From a virus: 22,486 bases of DNA. Location: the IMG/VR virus record IMGVR_UViG_3300025872_000333, positions 1 to 22,486 of that record. The stretch is one strand, 5' to 3'. Below, piece after piece: positions 1-19,930 of this stretch. Position numbers and translations under genes: made by a program. A model generated the notes under the pieces. That model did no database searches and was not told where the DNA came from. It saw nothing but the letters and a program-made list of their open reading frames with translations. Positions within the stretch are counted from its first letter, which is position 1. The number at the start of each line of letters is the position of its first letter.

Positions 1-1707
1 ATAGGCTTCAATAAAAGCATCTGCAAAGTTTGTGGGCATTACTTGCTGTGCAAGATTGCGAACATCTTCGCTTGTTTTAATAGCATCGTCTCCCCAAAGG
101 ATACGACCTGGAGAGCGAGATAGGTTCGAGCCTAGGTCATAGGCAAACTTACGTGCTCGCTTAACATCCTTTTTTAGTTTAAGAATGTCTTCAATCTCAG
201 GGTTGAGTAGACTTTCAGAATCATCAGATACCTTCTTCAAGGCATCCATAATACCTAGCAAGCCTTCATCGTTCTGCTTAATAACATCTTCTGTTGCTTT
301 TGATTTAACAGCAGGGTTAAAAGTTTCGTATGCAATTCTATGTGCAGCAGAAGTAACGTTACGTGTATCACGTGCAGTAACAATTCCACTACGGCGTGCA
401 GAAACACCAGTTACTGGACCACTCAAGAATGAGTTAAAGTCATCTACATCTGTAAAAAACTTCTTAGCAGTAGTTGAATCATACTTATTAAGTTTCTTCA
501 TTTCAGCGCCAATAGCGCGAATGCGTTCTCTGTCAGCCCACTGTGGGTGGTCTTGCTTAATCTTATTAAATGCAAGAGAACGAGCAGTAGGACTGTCTGC
601 TTCCATGTAGGACTTAATGATAGGACCTAGTTGGTCATCCCATAATGTCTTAACTTCTGGTTGTCTAAAAGCCCAGTCAAGACCAGCACTTGCAGTACCA
701 GCCTTTTCAGAAATATACTGATAAGTATCAGCCATTCTTTCGCCACGGCTTTTTAAACCAACAAACTTCATTGCATCAGCAGCAGCAACTGGAACTCCAT
801 CTACACCTTTAGTTAAAGCCTTTACTCCAGGTCCAACACCAATGTAGGTTAATGGGTCAATCGCAAATTGGTAAATAGCATCAATTGGTCCAGAAACAAA
901 CTTTCTTAAATCTGTTTGACCTTTTTTGGTTGTAGCATCAAGACCAAGTTTTTTTGTAAACTTAACTGCCCAATGATTTTTGTTAACAGTTGTTTCAGAT
1001 ACGGCTGCTTTGTTTGCAAAGTCACGACCAGGACTAACCTGTGCATCTAATTTAATTCGCTCTAAAAGATTCTGAAACTTCTCTGGCTCATCGCCCATAA
1101 ACTGAATAGCCTTATACATATCAGCATCACTTGTGCCATACATATCCATTGATTCACCAATGGTACGACCTTCAGCATTACCACGCAAAAGTGTAGTTAG
1201 TGCTTTTCCATATTGCTTCTCATAGGCAGCAACTTTGTCCCAACGCCATGAGTTTAAACCGTTGTAAGAATCAGTAAGAAGTTTTTTGGAAAATGGTTTG
1301 CCTTGTTCTAATTGAGCACGAACAATGTTTGGAGTATTAATTGTTTTACCATACTCGCCAGCAACTTTAAATCCAGCAATTTGAAGAGAAAAAGCCGCTT
1401 CTGTTGCTCTTTGAACAAGCCCACTACCAATTTGTACTAACTTACCCCGTAAATCTTGTTCTGGTTCAAAGATTTGTTTGTCTGGATAAATAGTACGAAT
1501 GTTAGTTTGTACTACTGGGTCTAGTTTTAGAAACTGCTTACGTGCTTCTTTTTCACTTAACTTAAGTAAAGACTTAGCCTTTAAGTAATTCTTAGTATGC
1601 TGCTCAACAAGCAGTGCTTCTTTAGGGTCAAGTTGTGTTTTTAAAGCAGCACTATAAAAGTTAGGGCTAACGAGTGCAACAGATGGGTCAAGATTTACCT
1701 CTGGCAT
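1..1707 (-). CDS. Large virion structural protein, possibly internal/ejected, C-terminus beyond left edge
   Basis: I checked this frame codon by codon from the ATG at 1705-1707 to base 1 and found no stop, giving at least 569 residues. It begins MPEVNLDPSVALVSPNFYSA. The protein is strongly helical and rich in Lys, Glu and Ala, with a more hydrophobic stretch about residues 265-290 (segment SGPIDAIYQFAIDPLTYIG). No enzymatic motif was recognised. Its start overlaps the stop of the preceding gene (TAATG), so it belongs to the late operon downstream of portal and the Ntn-hydrolase. Large helical proteins in phage structural modules are often internal virion, ejection or tape-measure-like proteins; I favour an internal virion protein because it sits close to portal, but this is inference from size, composition and position. 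The true length is unknown. Confidence 0.75.
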   Translation of the reverse strand, partial: MPEVNLDPSVALVSPNFYSAALKTQLDPKEALLVEQHTKNYLKAKSLLKLSEKEARKQFLKLDPVVQTNIRTIYPDKQIFEPEQDLRGKLVQIGSGLVQRATEAAFSLQIAGFKVAGEYGKTINTPNIVRAQLEQGKPFSKKLLTDSYNGLNSWRWDKVAAYEKQYGKALTTLLRGNAEGRTIGESMDMYGTSDADMYKAIQFMGDEPEKFQNLLERIKLDAQVSPGRDFANKAAVSETTVNKNHWAVKFTKKLGLDATTKKGQTDLRKFVSGPIDAIYQFAIDPLTYIGVGPGVKALTKGVDGVPVAAADAMKFVGLKSRGERMADTYQYISEKAGTASAGLDWAFRQPEVKTLWDDQLGPIIKSYMEADSPTARSLAFNKIKQDHPQWADRERIRAIGAEMKKLNKYDSTTAKKFFTDVDDFNSFLSGPVTGVSARRSGIVTARDTRNVTSAAHRIAYETFNPAVKSKATEDVIKQNDEGLLGIMDALKKVSDDSESLLNPEIEDILKLKKDVKRARKFAYDLGSNLSRSPGRILWGDDAIKTSEDVRNLAQQVMPTNFADAFIEAY

Positions 1708-2129
1708 TAAGCACCACTATCTTCTAGCATTCGGTAAATTAACTCTGTCTCTCCAGTTGTATCCTGTTGTGCAATCTTGCGTAGCACAGAAAGGATAGTT
1801 GGCTCCATTTGTGTTGGAGGTGCTGGCAAAACTTCTGGACCAGGACCTGCACCAAAACTCATACCAGATGTAATTGGTTCATTAGGACGCTCTGTTGGAG
1901 CAGTCAATGGAGTAATGGAACCACCAAGGGCACCCTCAAACGGATTGCCTTGCATAGGTGCTGCTACTTGATTTGAGTAGGTTTGCTGTCCTTGTCCGTA
2001 TGGAAGTCCTGAGATGTACTTTGCTCCTTGTGTTGGTCCCCCGTCAGTGCGTTGAGAAAGAGCGCCAGGGCCTGAAACTGGGGCTGGGTTAGACGGCTCA
2101 CGATAACCACCTTGTGGTGCTGTTGTCAT
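1707..2129 (-). CDS. Pro/Gly-rich small protein of the head module
   Basis: 140 residues. The first 105 or so are low complexity, rich in Pro, Gly, Gln and Ala, and look disordered. The last 35 or so (ILSVLRKIAQQ onward, ending RMLEDSGA) form one amphipathic helix. The ATG at 2127-2129 overlaps the stop of the upstream gene (TAATG) and its own stop overlaps the start of the large protein, so all three are probably translationally coupled. No family was recognised. A disordered body with a short terminal helix suits a linker, decoration or assembly-chaperone role, but nothing in the sequence proves one. It could also be a scaffold-like factor, though it is less acidic and less helical than typical scaffolds. 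Confidence 0.7.
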   Translation of the reverse strand: MTTAPQGGYREPSNPAPVSGPGALSQRTDGGPTQGAKYISGLPYGQGQQTYSNQVAAPMQGNPFEGALGGSITPLTAPTERPNEPITSGMSFGAGPGPEVLPAPPTQMEPTILSVLRKIAQQDTTGETELIYRMLEDSGA

Positions 2130-2407
2130 TACTCATCTCCTTCGTCTTCCATTAATTCATCATCTTCATCTGCTGGCGGTTCGCCAAAGGACTCTTTATT
2201 GTATTCCTTAGCCATACGCATCATGCCATAGGCATTCCAGGGTGTCATTGCTTCTGACACTTCCGTATGCAAGTAACGAGTTCCATCATAGTCTGCCCAT
2301 TCTGTAATTATTAGCCAGTTAGCGCAGATGTAGTTAGACCCATCAGGGTCTTCCTCTATTAGAACTCTTAGTGCTTGCTCTATTTTCTCCCTGAACTTCT
2401 CACTCAT
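2129..2407 (-). CDS. Small acidic protein of unknown function, head module
   Basis: 92 residues. The N-terminus is an amphipathic helix (MSEKFREKIEQALRVLIEED). A Trp/Tyr-rich core follows (NWLIITEWADYDGTRYLHTE, then TPWNAYGMMRMA) and the protein ends in a very acidic tail of about 18 residues dominated by Asp and Glu. The start overlaps the stop of the Ntn-hydrolase gene (ATGA). The W-I-I-T-E-W-x-D-x-D-G-x-R-Y-L pattern looks like a conserved small phage protein, but I cannot attach a function. Close coupling to the hydrolase makes a partner or regulator of that enzyme possible; this is inference from position only. Confidence 0.7.
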   Translation of the reverse strand: MSEKFREKIEQALRVLIEEDPDGSNYICANWLIITEWADYDGTRYLHTEVSEAMTPWNAYGMMRMAKEYNKESFGEPPADEDDELMEDEGDE

Positions 2408-2973
2408 TTTGCGTACTGAATCTTTGTTATAATTGGTGGGCTAGTATAAATATCCCACACACAGGCAATCTCAATTGCTTTGCGAATTATTTTTTCCGCT
2501 TGCTCTGGAGTTTTCGCTTTATCAATATGTAGCGCCTCCATAACTCCCACAGCAATATCGCCACCATTGCCCCCATAATAGATACCACGGTTATCACGGT
2601 CCCAAGAATAATCTTGAAATACAGGATAAAGGATTCCGCGAATGCTGATAATAAAATCTGAATCTTGCGCTGCTGCATCCCCATCTTCTTTCATGTCATA
2701 ACCTGCATCAATAAAAGTTTTACGCATAGCGGGGATAAACTTTTGCGTCATAAACAAATCTAAGTCTTCCAACTTAGTTGGCTTAGGTGGTTTCCACCCA
2801 AACTGTAAGATGTTAGAACCACGACTAGCACCAGAACCTGCAATAAGATAACCGTTGTTCTCAATAATTTTATGAGTAGCAATTGTCATAGGGCGACCAG
2901 TTTCATCAGATGCTCTAGAATCGCACCCAATTACAGACCAACCATTACCTTGATATGCAGCAAGTGTTGTCAT
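2404..2973 (-). CDS. Proteasome beta/HslV-like Ntn-hydrolase, candidate prohead maturation protease
   Basis: 189 residues, about the length of bacterial HslV. The start is MTTLAAYQGNGW; removal of Met would expose Thr1, the nucleophile of proteasome beta subunits and HslV. Counting from that Thr, Asp falls at 17 (GCDSRAS) and Lys at 34 in a T-H-K-I-I segment, close to the Thr1/Asp17/Lys33 set of the family. The next strand reads YLIAGSGASRGSNILQF, equivalent to the glycine-rich AGFAGGTAD segment of HslV, and the C-terminus (AIEIACVWDIYTSPPIITKI) matches the HslV end containing ICIYTNHF. A strong ribosome binding site (AAGGAGGGGAC on the minus strand) precedes the ATG. It lies directly after portal, where tailed phages usually encode the prohead protease, and no classical prohead protease is visible nearby. 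Family placement is fairly secure; the maturation role is inferred. Confidence 0.78.
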   Translation of the reverse strand: MTTLAAYQGNGWSVIGCDSRASDETGRPMTIATHKIIENNGYLIAGSGASRGSNILQFGWKPPKPTKLEDLDLFMTQKFIPAMRKTFIDAGYDMKEDGDAAAQDSDFIISIRGILYPVFQDYSWDRDNRGIYYGGNGGDIAVGVMEALHIDKAKTPEQAEKIIRKAIEIACVWDIYTSPPIITKIQYAK

Positions 2974-2987
2974 GTCCCCTCCTTGTT

Positions 2988-4742
2988 TTATCTACGAGTT
3001 ACTGTTCGCGCTGATGCGCTTGCCGTTCCACCTGATGTCAGGCTTGATAATAAACTTTGTAACGATTGCGGTTGTCCTGCTCCTGGTGGAAGAGCGCCAC
3101 CTGCTGGAGCCGCGGCGGGAGCAGGGGACGGTTGCTCAACCTGAGATGCTTCCCCAGCAGGTGGTAATTCTGGAGCGAACACATCATTGATTGCGTCCTC
3201 AATCTGAGTGCCCTTCTGGCGCATACGGATAACTTCTGCAATCTTCTTAACGATTGTAGTTGGGTCTCCGCCATTAGCAATAAGTTGTGGAATTGCTTGT
3301 GCTGAAGCATTAAGAGATGAGATAAGCGCAGAGCGCATTTCCTCAACTTCAATCTTTTCCTGCTCCTGAGTTACGTTAACTCCAAATGGCAATTCACGTT
3401 GTGCTAAATCCTTAGAGATTAATTTACCGCCAAGGGCTTGTAGCATAAAGATAAGTCCCTGTGCTGGGTTAAGCCCAGCCAACATTCCATAACGAACATC
3501 AGCAGAGTAGTCTCCCTTGATATCCTTTGATGGGAGATACTCAATTGCATAAGGGCTACCTGAATCAATACCACGAATAGCCTTAATCTCATTAAAGATT
3601 TTTTCATCTACTTCAAAGCAAAGTGAAATTACAGTCTTAAGTGCAGATGCAAAGATTGCTTGCGCTGACTTGACCTGTGTATCAAATCCACCCATAAGGG
3701 CTTGCACGCCTTGACCAGTAATGATTGAAGCATCAACATTTCCAGTACGTGATTCAGGATAGCGTGTACCAGTACGCAATTCATTTTGTAGAACTGCTTG
3801 CTCATTGAACAATGAACCAGATACTGGTAGTTCAACTCGGCGAACACCTGCTGGGTTCTTAGTACGGATAACTCCGTCTCCACCAAATTGGAACTCGTTC
3901 ACATCGTCAGGGACAATCAGTGGTGACTGCACGGCTTTCTCTGTTGCTTCCATCGCAAGTAATGCGAATCTATTGCGAAGCAACTGAATACCAAGCACAT
4001 CATCAAACTGTCCACGCATCTCTCCATCAACAGTTGGTCGCTTAGCAACTACAACCATCATCTTGCCAATAGGATTCTTGGCACGGGAGATAACTAGGTT
4101 CTGGCGGTCTGGAACGTAAATGATAGATTGATACTGGTCGTAGTAACGAATAATATCGAATCTAGCATTCATATCTTGGTCATAACCATCACGACCAAGT
4201 AAAGCGTCAGTATGCTCTGGGAACTGGGAAACCAATTCTGCCAGTGGCATAGAGTAACGCTTAGCAAAAGCAACGCAGCGTCCGTAGCGGTCAAACTCAG
4301 GATACGCCCCGACAGGACTTTCTACGCGAATACGCGGCAACTTTGCTTCAGTGTCCAGTTCAATGATGAACGGGACAAACCCAAATGTGATGTACCAGTC
4401 TGCGCCTGTATACATCTGTACTTGCAACTCGGAATTGTAAAGATAGTTAGCAGCAATGCGAGTACGGTTATCTGCTGCTTTACGAGCACGGTCTTTAACT
4501 TGGCTAACTACAGAGCAGTTAACTGCTGGTAGCGGTGCCATTACTTCTGATAGGTCACGGGCAACAATGTCAACAAAGTTAGCAACTACGTTTGTATCTA
4601 CACCTTCAGGAAAGAAGTCAGGATACACACTAGAAATCTGACCTTGGCGGACTAGCAACACATCTTGGTGACGACCATCGCGCTCACGGCTACGGTCTTT
4701 TAAAGACGCAACACGTGCAAAGATTTGCTTATCTGTTAGCAT
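2988..4742 (-). CDS. Portal protein
   Basis: 584 residues. Portal proteins form the dodecameric ring at one capsid vertex through which DNA enters and leaves. Supporting features are length, position downstream of TerL, and a typical mixed alpha/beta order: an N-terminal helical segment (MLTDKQIFARVASLKDRSRE), a middle with PVGAYPEFDRYGRCVAFAKR and a long helix (LLRNRFALLAMEATEKAVQS), then a wing-like region and helical crown. The C-terminal 60 or so residues are Pro/Ala/Gly/Gln/Ser-rich and look disordered. The ATG overlaps the stop of the preceding lysine-rich gene (TAATG). Assignment rests on context and general resemblance rather than a diagnostic motif; a head-tail connector is the main alternative. 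Confidence 0.72.
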   Translation of the reverse strand: MLTDKQIFARVASLKDRSRERDGRHQDVLLVRQGQISSVYPDFFPEGVDTNVVANFVDIVARDLSEVMAPLPAVNCSVVSQVKDRARKAADNRTRIAANYLYNSELQVQMYTGADWYITFGFVPFIIELDTEAKLPRIRVESPVGAYPEFDRYGRCVAFAKRYSMPLAELVSQFPEHTDALLGRDGYDQDMNARFDIIRYYDQYQSIIYVPDRQNLVISRAKNPIGKMMVVVAKRPTVDGEMRGQFDDVLGIQLLRNRFALLAMEATEKAVQSPLIVPDDVNEFQFGGDGVIRTKNPAGVRRVELPVSGSLFNEQAVLQNELRTGTRYPESRTGNVDASIITGQGVQALMGGFDTQVKSAQAIFASALKTVISLCFEVDEKIFNEIKAIRGIDSGSPYAIEYLPSKDIKGDYSADVRYGMLAGLNPAQGLIFMLQALGGKLISKDLAQRELPFGVNVTQEQEKIEVEEMRSALISSLNASAQAIPQLIANGGDPTTIVKKIAEVIRMRQKGTQIEDAINDVFAPELPPAGEASQVEQPSPAPAAAPAGGALPPGAGQPQSLQSLLSSLTSGGTASASARTVTRR

Positions 4743-5596: not shown

Positions 5597-7483
5597 TTAT
5601 CCGAATTGTTCTTGCCACTGTTGTTGTAGTGCAAGGTCTAGATTTACAGTTCCGCGTCTTGATAGTTGAGCACGTGTAGCCCAACGGTTTTCTGTGTATC
5701 GTGAGATAACGGTGCTCTGTTGCATCAACTCACGAAGTCTAAGGAATGCAAACCACATAGCCATCACGCAGTCTGTCTTGCCTTTGGTCTCGGGTTTCCA
5801 AGTAATGAGTTGTTGAATTAAAGCCTTGACTCCCTCTGAACCATCTGAGGAAGGAAACTCAATTGTGTTGTTCTTTTGGAATACTCCATCGTGCATAGTG
5901 CCCAGCATTGTTGACATAGATGCCACACCATGGGAAGTATCCCATTTGTTCTTTGCTGTAAAGTGAGGCTTTAGGCTTGTGCCGTATTGAGATAGCCATT
6001 CACGCAAATCGTTATCTAGTTCATAGGCTTTCTGGTGAGCGTTAATCTCAACGCGAATCTCATTAGGACGATACTTGATAGTAAACTCTTCCAGCATTGC
6101 GCGAATTTTTTGTGGTGTAGGCTCAGACATGTTCTCACAGTCCAGCACATACATTTTTCCGTCTGCTCGGTTATAGGTCATTGCTACAAACGCAGCATGT
6201 CCTCTGCCCATAGCAGGGTCAAATCCAACAACTGTATAACCTTCAACCTGAGTCGGATGTCCCACCGCGCCTGGTTTTAACGGACCACGCTTTCTCATAC
6301 CCTTTACACATGACTGAACCAGTGCGGGTGGGAAGATGGAATCTTCTTCGACATCCTCCTGCTGATAGACCAAAGCCCAGGTACTAGGTGTTACTTCACC
6401 ACGGCGCTTAAATAATGATGGGCCATCCCACTTAGGGTATAGCCCTTGCTCATCGGGTGTGTCCTCGTCTCCATCCCACGGATGGTCAGACTTAGGCCAA
6501 AGGGTTACCCATTCTTCTGGGTTCTTCCCATACTCCAAAACCGCAGGCATAGCCATGTAAGTAAATGGGCACTTACCATTAGACCAATGCTTCGGATTAC
6601 GAAGTTCTTTATAAAAATCATTCGCCGCAATTCGTGTCCCTACAATTAGCAACTTGCCGTTTTTACCCAAACGGGTAATAACTTCCTTTTGTAACCAGTT
6701 AATCTGCTTATCCCACTCATGGGCGTTAGCGGTAGTAATACAGTCATCCAAAATAATCAGGTCGGCGCGGGCACCGTAAATCTGACCACCCATACCAAGT
6801 GCTTGGATAGTTGGGTCTTTCTCGGATGAATCTCTCGCATCGCCCCCAAGGTAAACCGTGTCTACCTTCCAGGTATCGGCATCTTGTTTCCAACCGCCCT
6901 CTGGGCCATAGGCTGTTTGTAACTTCAGCCAACGTGGGTGGGATAACCTTTGCTTAATCGCATACACGAACTCTCGTGCTTTGTTAAGGGTCTTACTGAC
7001 CACAATGATACGCACATTGGGATTGAGGGCGATACGATAAGTCGAATAGTTAACAGTCACCACAGTGGACTTGGCGTGCTCAGGGGGTACGTTAACCAAT
7101 AGGCGGTTCTGGTCTCCAGGCTCATACACCATAGAGTCATGCAGCCATGAAGGCTCATCGCCTTCTAGTAGGTCAATCCAATCCTGATGGTGGGCAAATA
7201 CCTTCTGCCCCAAAAATACCTCTGAGAACTGGGAAAAGGAAATCTCATCCTTTGCCACCCCCAGGGCGACAGTGGACTTATTTTTGGCATCTGCCTTAGC
7301 ATCTTCCAAATCACGGGCAAACTTCTTATCGCGGCTAATCCAGATACGCAGGGTATCTTCCTTATAGCCAATCTGCTGCATAGCCCTTGGGGCACCCATG
7401 CCCTCGGCTATCAGGGCTAAAACCTTAGCCTTTGCCTCCGCAGTTTTTTCCGTACGGGGGTTGTTAGTTTTGCTAAATGTCAT
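5597..7483 (-). CDS. terL: Terminase large subunit (DNA packaging motor) with N-terminal HTH
   Basis: 628 residues. TerL is the ATPase-nuclease that translocates DNA into the prohead and cuts it. Residues 16-60 form a helix-turn-helix (RAMQQIGYKEDTLRIWIS) of the kind found in small terminase subunits. The ATPase domain has a Walker A-like motif at about 132-140 (VPPEHAKST) and Walker B at about 242-247 (LIILDD), followed by a possible coupling motif (LLIVGTR). The RNase H-like nuclease domain starts at about residue 415 with VVGFDPAMGRG (Asp422), and later acidic residues (RVEINAH, KTDCVMAMW) fit the metal site. This is the first gene of the minus-strand late operon, facing the divergent control region. 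Its ribosome binding site is weak (GGGACAG). No separate small subunit gene is visible in this window. Confidence 0.93.
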   Translation of the reverse strand: MTFSKTNNPRTEKTAEAKAKVLALIAEGMGAPRAMQQIGYKEDTLRIWISRDKKFARDLEDAKADAKNKSTVALGVAKDEISFSQFSEVFLGQKVFAHHQDWIDLLEGDEPSWLHDSMVYEPGDQNRLLVNVPPEHAKSTVVTVNYSTYRIALNPNVRIIVVSKTLNKAREFVYAIKQRLSHPRWLKLQTAYGPEGGWKQDADTWKVDTVYLGGDARDSSEKDPTIQALGMGGQIYGARADLIILDDCITTANAHEWDKQINWLQKEVITRLGKNGKLLIVGTRIAANDFYKELRNPKHWSNGKCPFTYMAMPAVLEYGKNPEEWVTLWPKSDHPWDGDEDTPDEQGLYPKWDGPSLFKRRGEVTPSTWALVYQQEDVEEDSIFPPALVQSCVKGMRKRGPLKPGAVGHPTQVEGYTVVGFDPAMGRGHAAFVAMTYNRADGKMYVLDCENMSEPTPQKIRAMLEEFTIKYRPNEIRVEINAHQKAYELDNDLREWLSQYGTSLKPHFTAKNKWDTSHGVASMSTMLGTMHDGVFQKNNTIEFPSSDGSEGVKALIQQLITWKPETKGKTDCVMAMWFAFLRLRELMQQSTVISRYTENRWATRAQLSRRGTVNLDLALQQQWQEQFG

Positions 7484-19426: not shown

Positions 19427-19930
19427 TTATTGCTTTGCCCCGTGCAATTTGCAGCAGGTACAAACTTCAGTTTTGTATGCCTTTTTGGCAGGAACTGGTA
19501 GCGCCAATGCTACCACTTGATTGACAATTTTAGGCTGATTTAGCCACCAGAACCACGGAGAAGTATCTGTACAAAAAGCGGGGTTAATAGAAATATGAAG
19601 GTGCTTATTGTGAGGATTACTCCCAGTGTACCGTCTGTTTCCCAACTTGGACTTTTCTCTTGACCAGATTTTTCCTTTGAAGATAAGATACTTAACACGC
19701 TTATCCTCCTTTAACTTTTCAAATATATCGGCACAATCAATGCCATGTTTAGGGTCGTGGGTTAGGTCAACTGCAAGTCCAGTATTATGGTCGCTGGTTG
19801 GACTCTGTTTCAGATGAGCGTTCGACGGCAGAAGTCCATCTGACGCTTTCAAACGCAGCGGAGAAATCGCTGTGGCTTGACGCAGGACAGCAATAGCGGC
19901 AGGTGTGGCTCTCTTGACAACAGACTTCAT
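19427..19930 (-). CDS. Endolysin, M15-type (VanY-like) zinc peptidase
   Basis: 167 residues. The M15 peptidase signature S-D-H-N-T-G-L-A-V-D-L gives His48 and Asp55, and the H-N-K-H-L-H-I-S block gives His110/His112, completing the zinc site. M15-type endolysins cleave peptide cross-links (D-Ala-D-Ala or L-Ala-D-Glu type) of peptidoglycan. There is no signal peptide, so export needs a holin; two small membrane proteins flank it. A Cys-rich tail (VCTCCKLHGAKQ) after a hydrophobic Pro/Ala segment may bind metal or the wall. The start overlaps the stop of the upstream membrane gene (TAATG). Confidence 0.88.
   Translation of the reverse strand: MKSVVKRATPAAIAVLRQATAISPLRLKASDGLLPSNAHLKQSPTSDHNTGLAVDLTHDPKHGIDCADIFEKLKEDKRVKYLIFKGKIWSREKSKLGNRRYTGSNPHNKHLHISINPAFCTDTSPWFWWLNQPKIVNQVVALALPVPAKKAYKTEVCTCCKLHGAKQ

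Follow-up and report, generated by a model that had tools for sequence, protein, structure and literature searches.

The 22,486-base IMG/VR virus record analysed here (the window), which is probably a fragment, encodes a subunit of a proteasome-type threonine protease related to BPH and HslV, and the gene most likely specifies an optional late protease rather than the enzyme that matures the capsid. This HslV-like gene holds one exact slot in widespread freshwater actinophages, whose cultured representatives are Planktophila phages E7 and F5. The features of the window to which the argument refers are as follows.

2404..2973, minus strand: HslV-like (proteasome-type) threonine protease gene, assigned from PHROG 1040, profiles, a structure model and active-site residues
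2976..2984, minus strand: ribosome-binding site of the HslV-like gene, AAGGAGGGG, by direct reading
2404..2407, minus strand: ATGA in which the HslV-like stop codon and the p92 start overlap, by direct reading
2988..4742, minus strand: portal protein (phrog_104, E=1.1e-23)
5597..7483, minus strand: terminase large subunit (phrog_38, E=6.7e-69)
2129..2407, minus strand: p92, a small protein with an acidic tail; 47 of 72 loci carry it after the HslV-like gene
1707..2129, minus strand: p140 (phrog_8200), a conserved gene that comes next in the module; 72 of 72 loci have it downstream
1..1707, minus strand: N-terminal part of a very large, hypervariable protein (its relatives have 1550-1880 aa), truncated where the contig ends
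18478..18792, plus strand: WhiB-like transcription factor (PF02467, E=3.6e-17), a marker of an actinobacterial host

The reading frame at 2404-2973 is open, starts with ATG and encodes 189 residues beginning Met-Thr-Thr. It is preceded at 2984-2976 by AAGGAGGGG, a strong ribosome-binding site whose AGGAGG core lies four bases from the ATG. An HMM search with the window protein matched PHROG 1040, 'peptidase HslV family', over residues 1-184 (E=4.2e-17). Against the Pfam Proteasome family (PF00227), the window protein alone scored a suggestive 17.8 bits, the curated cut-off being 22.4, and 22 of 23 family members matched at E<=0.1 (best 7e-6). A search of the PDB with the single window sequence gave nothing significant; the family profile retrieved BPH (5ovu, E=3e-10) together with several HslV chains. 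The protein is not HslV proper, as the equivalog models TIGR03692 and NF003964 returned 15-16 bits where 157.75 and 137 are needed. Scans of genome contigs found no bacterial relatives of it.

The fold agrees with this assignment. AlphaFold2 run on only 16 close relatives gave an unusable model (pLDDT 42), and addition of divergent relatives to the alignment produced a monomer model with a pLDDT of 85.4 and a pTM of 0.84. This model shows a proteasome-type Ntn-hydrolase fold, and Foldseek matched it, with a probability of 1.00, to BPH (TM 0.76), HslV (TM 0.69) and also proteasome beta subunits. The best match among viral models (TM 0.88) is annotated 'HslV ATP-dependent protease HslVU (ClpYQ), peptidase subunit' and comes from an uncultured Caudovirales phage. 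The model contains two helix pairs (50-58 and 71-89; 138-147 and 156-175), and it is consistent with the group-I traits of AAH, one of the phage proteasome homologues (AAH, PPH and CPH) catalogued by Fuchs, Alva and Lupas in 2021 (PMC8665760), in that the insertions and the C-terminal helix 5 are absent. Assignment to PPH was considered and rejected because PPH has about 140 residues and lacks helix 2, whereas the window protein has 189 residues and four helices. An earlier note on this DNA, made from the sequence alone, had proposed an HslV-like Ntn hydrolase, and both the profile searches and the structure model bear this out.

The active-site residues that the note had picked out after the Met-Thr-Thr start, namely Asp17 and Lys34 counted from Thr1, are where it placed them, and its glycine block is there with Gly47 in 'GSGA'. 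All 78 full-length close relatives (72-100% identity) have Thr1, Thr2, Asp17, Lys34, Gly45 and Gly47 unchanged, and 79 divergent relatives of the phage E7 type, whose identity to the window protein is only about 30%, retain Thr1, Asp17, the Lys and the Gly. The Thr1/Asp17/Lys33/Gly47 set characteristic of proteasome-like Ntn hydrolases is thus present throughout the 78 and 79 sequences; in the window's type an insertion of one residue moves the lysine from 33 to 34. Substitution of Thr1 in most relatives, which the note had named as evidence against its proposal, is not seen, Thr1 being invariant in all 157. Median dN/dS values of 0.11, 0.14 and 0.06 in three groups indicate purifying selection, and the reading frame is therefore no chance ORF. 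One position sets the window copy apart from most of its kin: residue 135, in a GSG motif, is Asn here and in 11 of the 78 close relatives, and Ser in the other 67. From our reading of that motif, residue 135 probably corresponds to the Ser that in BPH hydrogen-bonds Thr1 (PMC5777263). With Asn135 instead of Ser, the activity of the window's own copy is uncertain.

Among known systems, BPH (5ovu, 5ovs and 5ovt; PMC5777263) is the closest in structure, being the top match of both the PDB profile search and Foldseek and sharing Thr1, Asp17, the Lys and the Gly; as for the window protein, its partner unfoldase is not known. It differs in being a chromosomal, bacterial protein with about 18% identity to the window protein and in having Ser where the window has Asn at the contact to Thr1. 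HslV (ClpQ) of HslVU is alike in size, Met-Thr-Thr start and fold, but the window protein scores far under the equivalog cut-offs and no HslU was found in the ten phage records scanned. The PHROG 1040 proteins and the AAH, PPH and CPH homologues share with the window protein the HMM match, the Thr1/Asp17/Lys/Gly residues, the lack of a propeptide, the lack of a detected AAA+ partner and an origin in tailed phages. In the 2021 catalogue, however, gene context was uninformative and no actinobacterial phage with AAH was listed (PMC8665760), whereas the window's family sits in a fixed slot after the portal gene in actinobacterial phages. HslV or BPH genes have been annotated before in reports on single phages (PMC7823757; PMC8953757). 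Our literature search turned up nothing on HslV in freshwater actinophages and no tested function for any phage proteasome homologue. What is new here is the fixed portal slot in actinobacterial phages, the swapping of alleles within it, the alternation with a second small gene (k76, below) and the comparative case against a role in maturation.

The slot belongs to a head module that reads terminase, one or more variable genes, portal, HslV-like gene, p92 (in some phages), p140, the 1550-1880-aa protein, c0, c15, a scaffold-like protein, major capsid protein (MCP) and tail genes. Synteny confirms the place beside the portal: in 78 of 79 loci the gene directly upstream is the portal gene, and the remaining locus, about 200 bp off, reflects a local-alignment effect. 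Planktophila phages E7 and F5 (OX376640, OX376641; PMC10202952) have the same module order, a portal 71% identical to that of the window and an HslV-like gene directly after it, but their HslV-like protein shares only about 30% identity with that of the window. Because the window carries a WhiB gene and is kin to these phages, the host points to a freshwater actinobacterium, probably of 'Ca. Nanopelagicales'. The Beephvirinae (Streptomyces phages Immanuel3 and FlowerPower) share the order of terminase, portal (41-43% identity), p140, very large protein, c15 and MCP; an HslV-like gene was found nowhere in their complete genomes.

Between the well conserved portal and scaffold/MCP genes lies a hypervariable block made up of the 1550-1880-aa protein (window 1-1707, minus strand; for example L088:6354-11669), c0 and c15, with median identities of 21-32%. 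These three are presumably ejected or tail-tip proteins. The c15 of Planktophila phage E7 (L084:15339-16931) contains a long Gly-Thr dipeptide repeat that is missing from most homologues.

To avoid selection for the gene under study, loci were gathered with the portal rather than HslV as bait. Of the 70 loci that the portal of phage E7 retrieved with sufficient DNA downstream, 61 had the gene and nine lacked it, and no copy was found elsewhere on those nine contigs, which include ones of 39.9, 37.5 and 30.5 kb. When a second portal query was added, from a phage without the HslV-like gene, the combined set comprised 95 distinct portals, 67 with the gene and 28 without. The portal tree requires at least four changes between presence and absence, and starred branches force three of these. 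A search with the portal of the window itself found the gene in all 42 loci of the window's clade and in 23 of 32 more distant ones, and the gene may therefore be important within that clade. In 26 of the 28 loci that lack it, the slot is filled by k76, a protein of 75-80 residues (75-95 across the wider k76 type) with an acidic tail that occurs in none of the 67 loci with the HslV-like gene; k76-like small proteins also occupy the slot in nine further loci (L419, L433, L439, L440, L442-L445 and L447). A representative is:

L262:14489-14716, minus strand: k76, between portal and p140, with the consensus ..EYxKSLRxAGF...YPxW..

k76 is unrelated to the HslV-like protein and has no family match, and no protease match was obtained for it or for nine other proteins of one genome without the HslV-like gene (ten proteins scanned). 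It might nonetheless be a functional replacement of the HslV-like gene.

The earlier note had suggested that the enzyme serves capsid maturation. A prohead protease recruited to cut scaffold and MCP during assembly would suit the near-invariant place beside the portal and the coding of the gene on the head-gene strand in translational linkage with its neighbour; as the note had remarked, no classical prohead protease was recognised among the structural proteins scanned. The comparison among relatives speaks against it. The gene is dispensable among close relatives: a phage with it (G024) and two without it (G014, G016) have MCPs 97% identical, scaffolds 82-84% and portals 87-88%, and another such pair (G023 with, G013 without) has MCPs 94% identical. 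Phages of the two groups show no difference in MCP N-termini or scaffold size. In a set of 35 genomes, 20 pairs combine MCPs more than 90% identical with HslV-like proteins less than 50% identical, and 28 pairs show the reverse, with HslV-like proteins above 70% and MCPs below 50%; variants about 30% identical are thus swapped without a matching change in the MCP. The Beephvirinae have the module without the gene, and outside the family homologues lie away from the portal, at the right end of Pitbull and beside thyX in Pumpernickel. A prohead protease should be required by the capsid that it processes and be kept together with it; the gene does not follow that pattern, and given its absence from 28 of 95 portal loci we consider this role very improbable. 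Because the gene is missing or swapped across near-identical capsids, the natural conclusion from these sequences is that this capsid would mature without the HslV-like enzyme, although in phages that lack the gene a host protease might do the same job. A protease beside the portal should not be named a maturation protease on that ground.

In actinomycetia phage DSL-LC01 (L082:12001-12954), the HslV-like gene stands immediately before whiB, about 6 kb upstream of the terminase gene.

An HslU-type AAA_2 domain was found in none of ten phage records (the window and nine relatives), with 14 of 14 controls matched, in line with the earlier observation that no cognate ATPase is visible. Fuchs et al. 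list no HslV for Actinobacteria in their Table 1 and discuss an unfoldase-independent clearance of unstructured proteins for such homologues (PMC8665760). On the basis of the missing AAA_2 domain, of BPH with its lack of a known unfoldase and of that discussion, we propose, with a probability of roughly 55%, that the gene encodes a BPH/HslV-like threonine protease that works independently of an unfoldase, late in infection and in an accessory capacity, to degrade flexible host or phage proteins. The host methionine aminopeptidase would remove the initiator Met and expose Thr1, and the subunits may then form a double ring that needs no dedicated ATPase, as proposed for BPH. Because the gene shares the strand of the head genes and has its own strong ribosome-binding site, we infer that the protease would be produced late, together with the head proteins, and it could then break down flexible or unfolded proteins of either partner at that stage. 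On this view the gene is an accessory one: its place between portal and p140 is fixed, divergent homologues replace one another there, and an unrelated small gene can occupy the place instead.

A serious rival, though in our estimate an unlikely one, is a specific protease for host takeover or counter-defence that removes one host protein, the slot diversifying as the target does. A host-facing role would suit the exchange of divergent variants within a single slot, as well as the pattern of presence, absence and divergent replacement under purifying selection, and homologues elsewhere lie in non-structural regions (by whiB in DSL-LC01, by thyX in Pumpernickel). A place among the head genes suggests late expression, however, which is late for counter-defence, and no target is known; we also know of no adaptor-less proteasome-type ring with high specificity. 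The enzyme could instead cut or clear the variable proteins encoded downstream (the 1550-1880-aa protein, c0 and c15), since the gene heads the hypervariable block and head proteins are processed by a prohead protease in other phages, such as SPN3US (PMC10052503). In 10 genomes c15 and c0 did co-vary with the HslV-like protein (Mantel p=0.0002 for c15), but in 35 genomes the correlation for c15 was only rho 0.19, under those of portal (0.45) and scaffold (0.39), and this line of evidence was dropped; moreover, the large protein of a phage without the gene (G013) is 64% identical to its counterpart in one with it (G022). Processing of ejection proteins is thus a weaker rival than a takeover or counter-defence target, and we regard it as distinctly unlikely. 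Quite improbable, too, is a broader role as a virion-assembly protease of actinobacterial phages, one that cuts or clears either capsid components or the variable ejection proteins, k76 achieving the equivalent through a recruited host protease; if true, this would be the first viral proteasome homologue with a morphogenetic function. The optional late protease that we favour can be approached directly, because cultured phages and natural 'knockouts' with near-identical capsids make the function of a viral proteasome homologue testable.

Elsewhere in the window, the gene at 19427-19930 (minus strand) matches phrog_32486 (E=3e-90); its product weakly resembles D-alanyl-D-alanine carboxypeptidases (E about 0.15 for Peptidase_M15_4 and VanY) and may be the endolysin.
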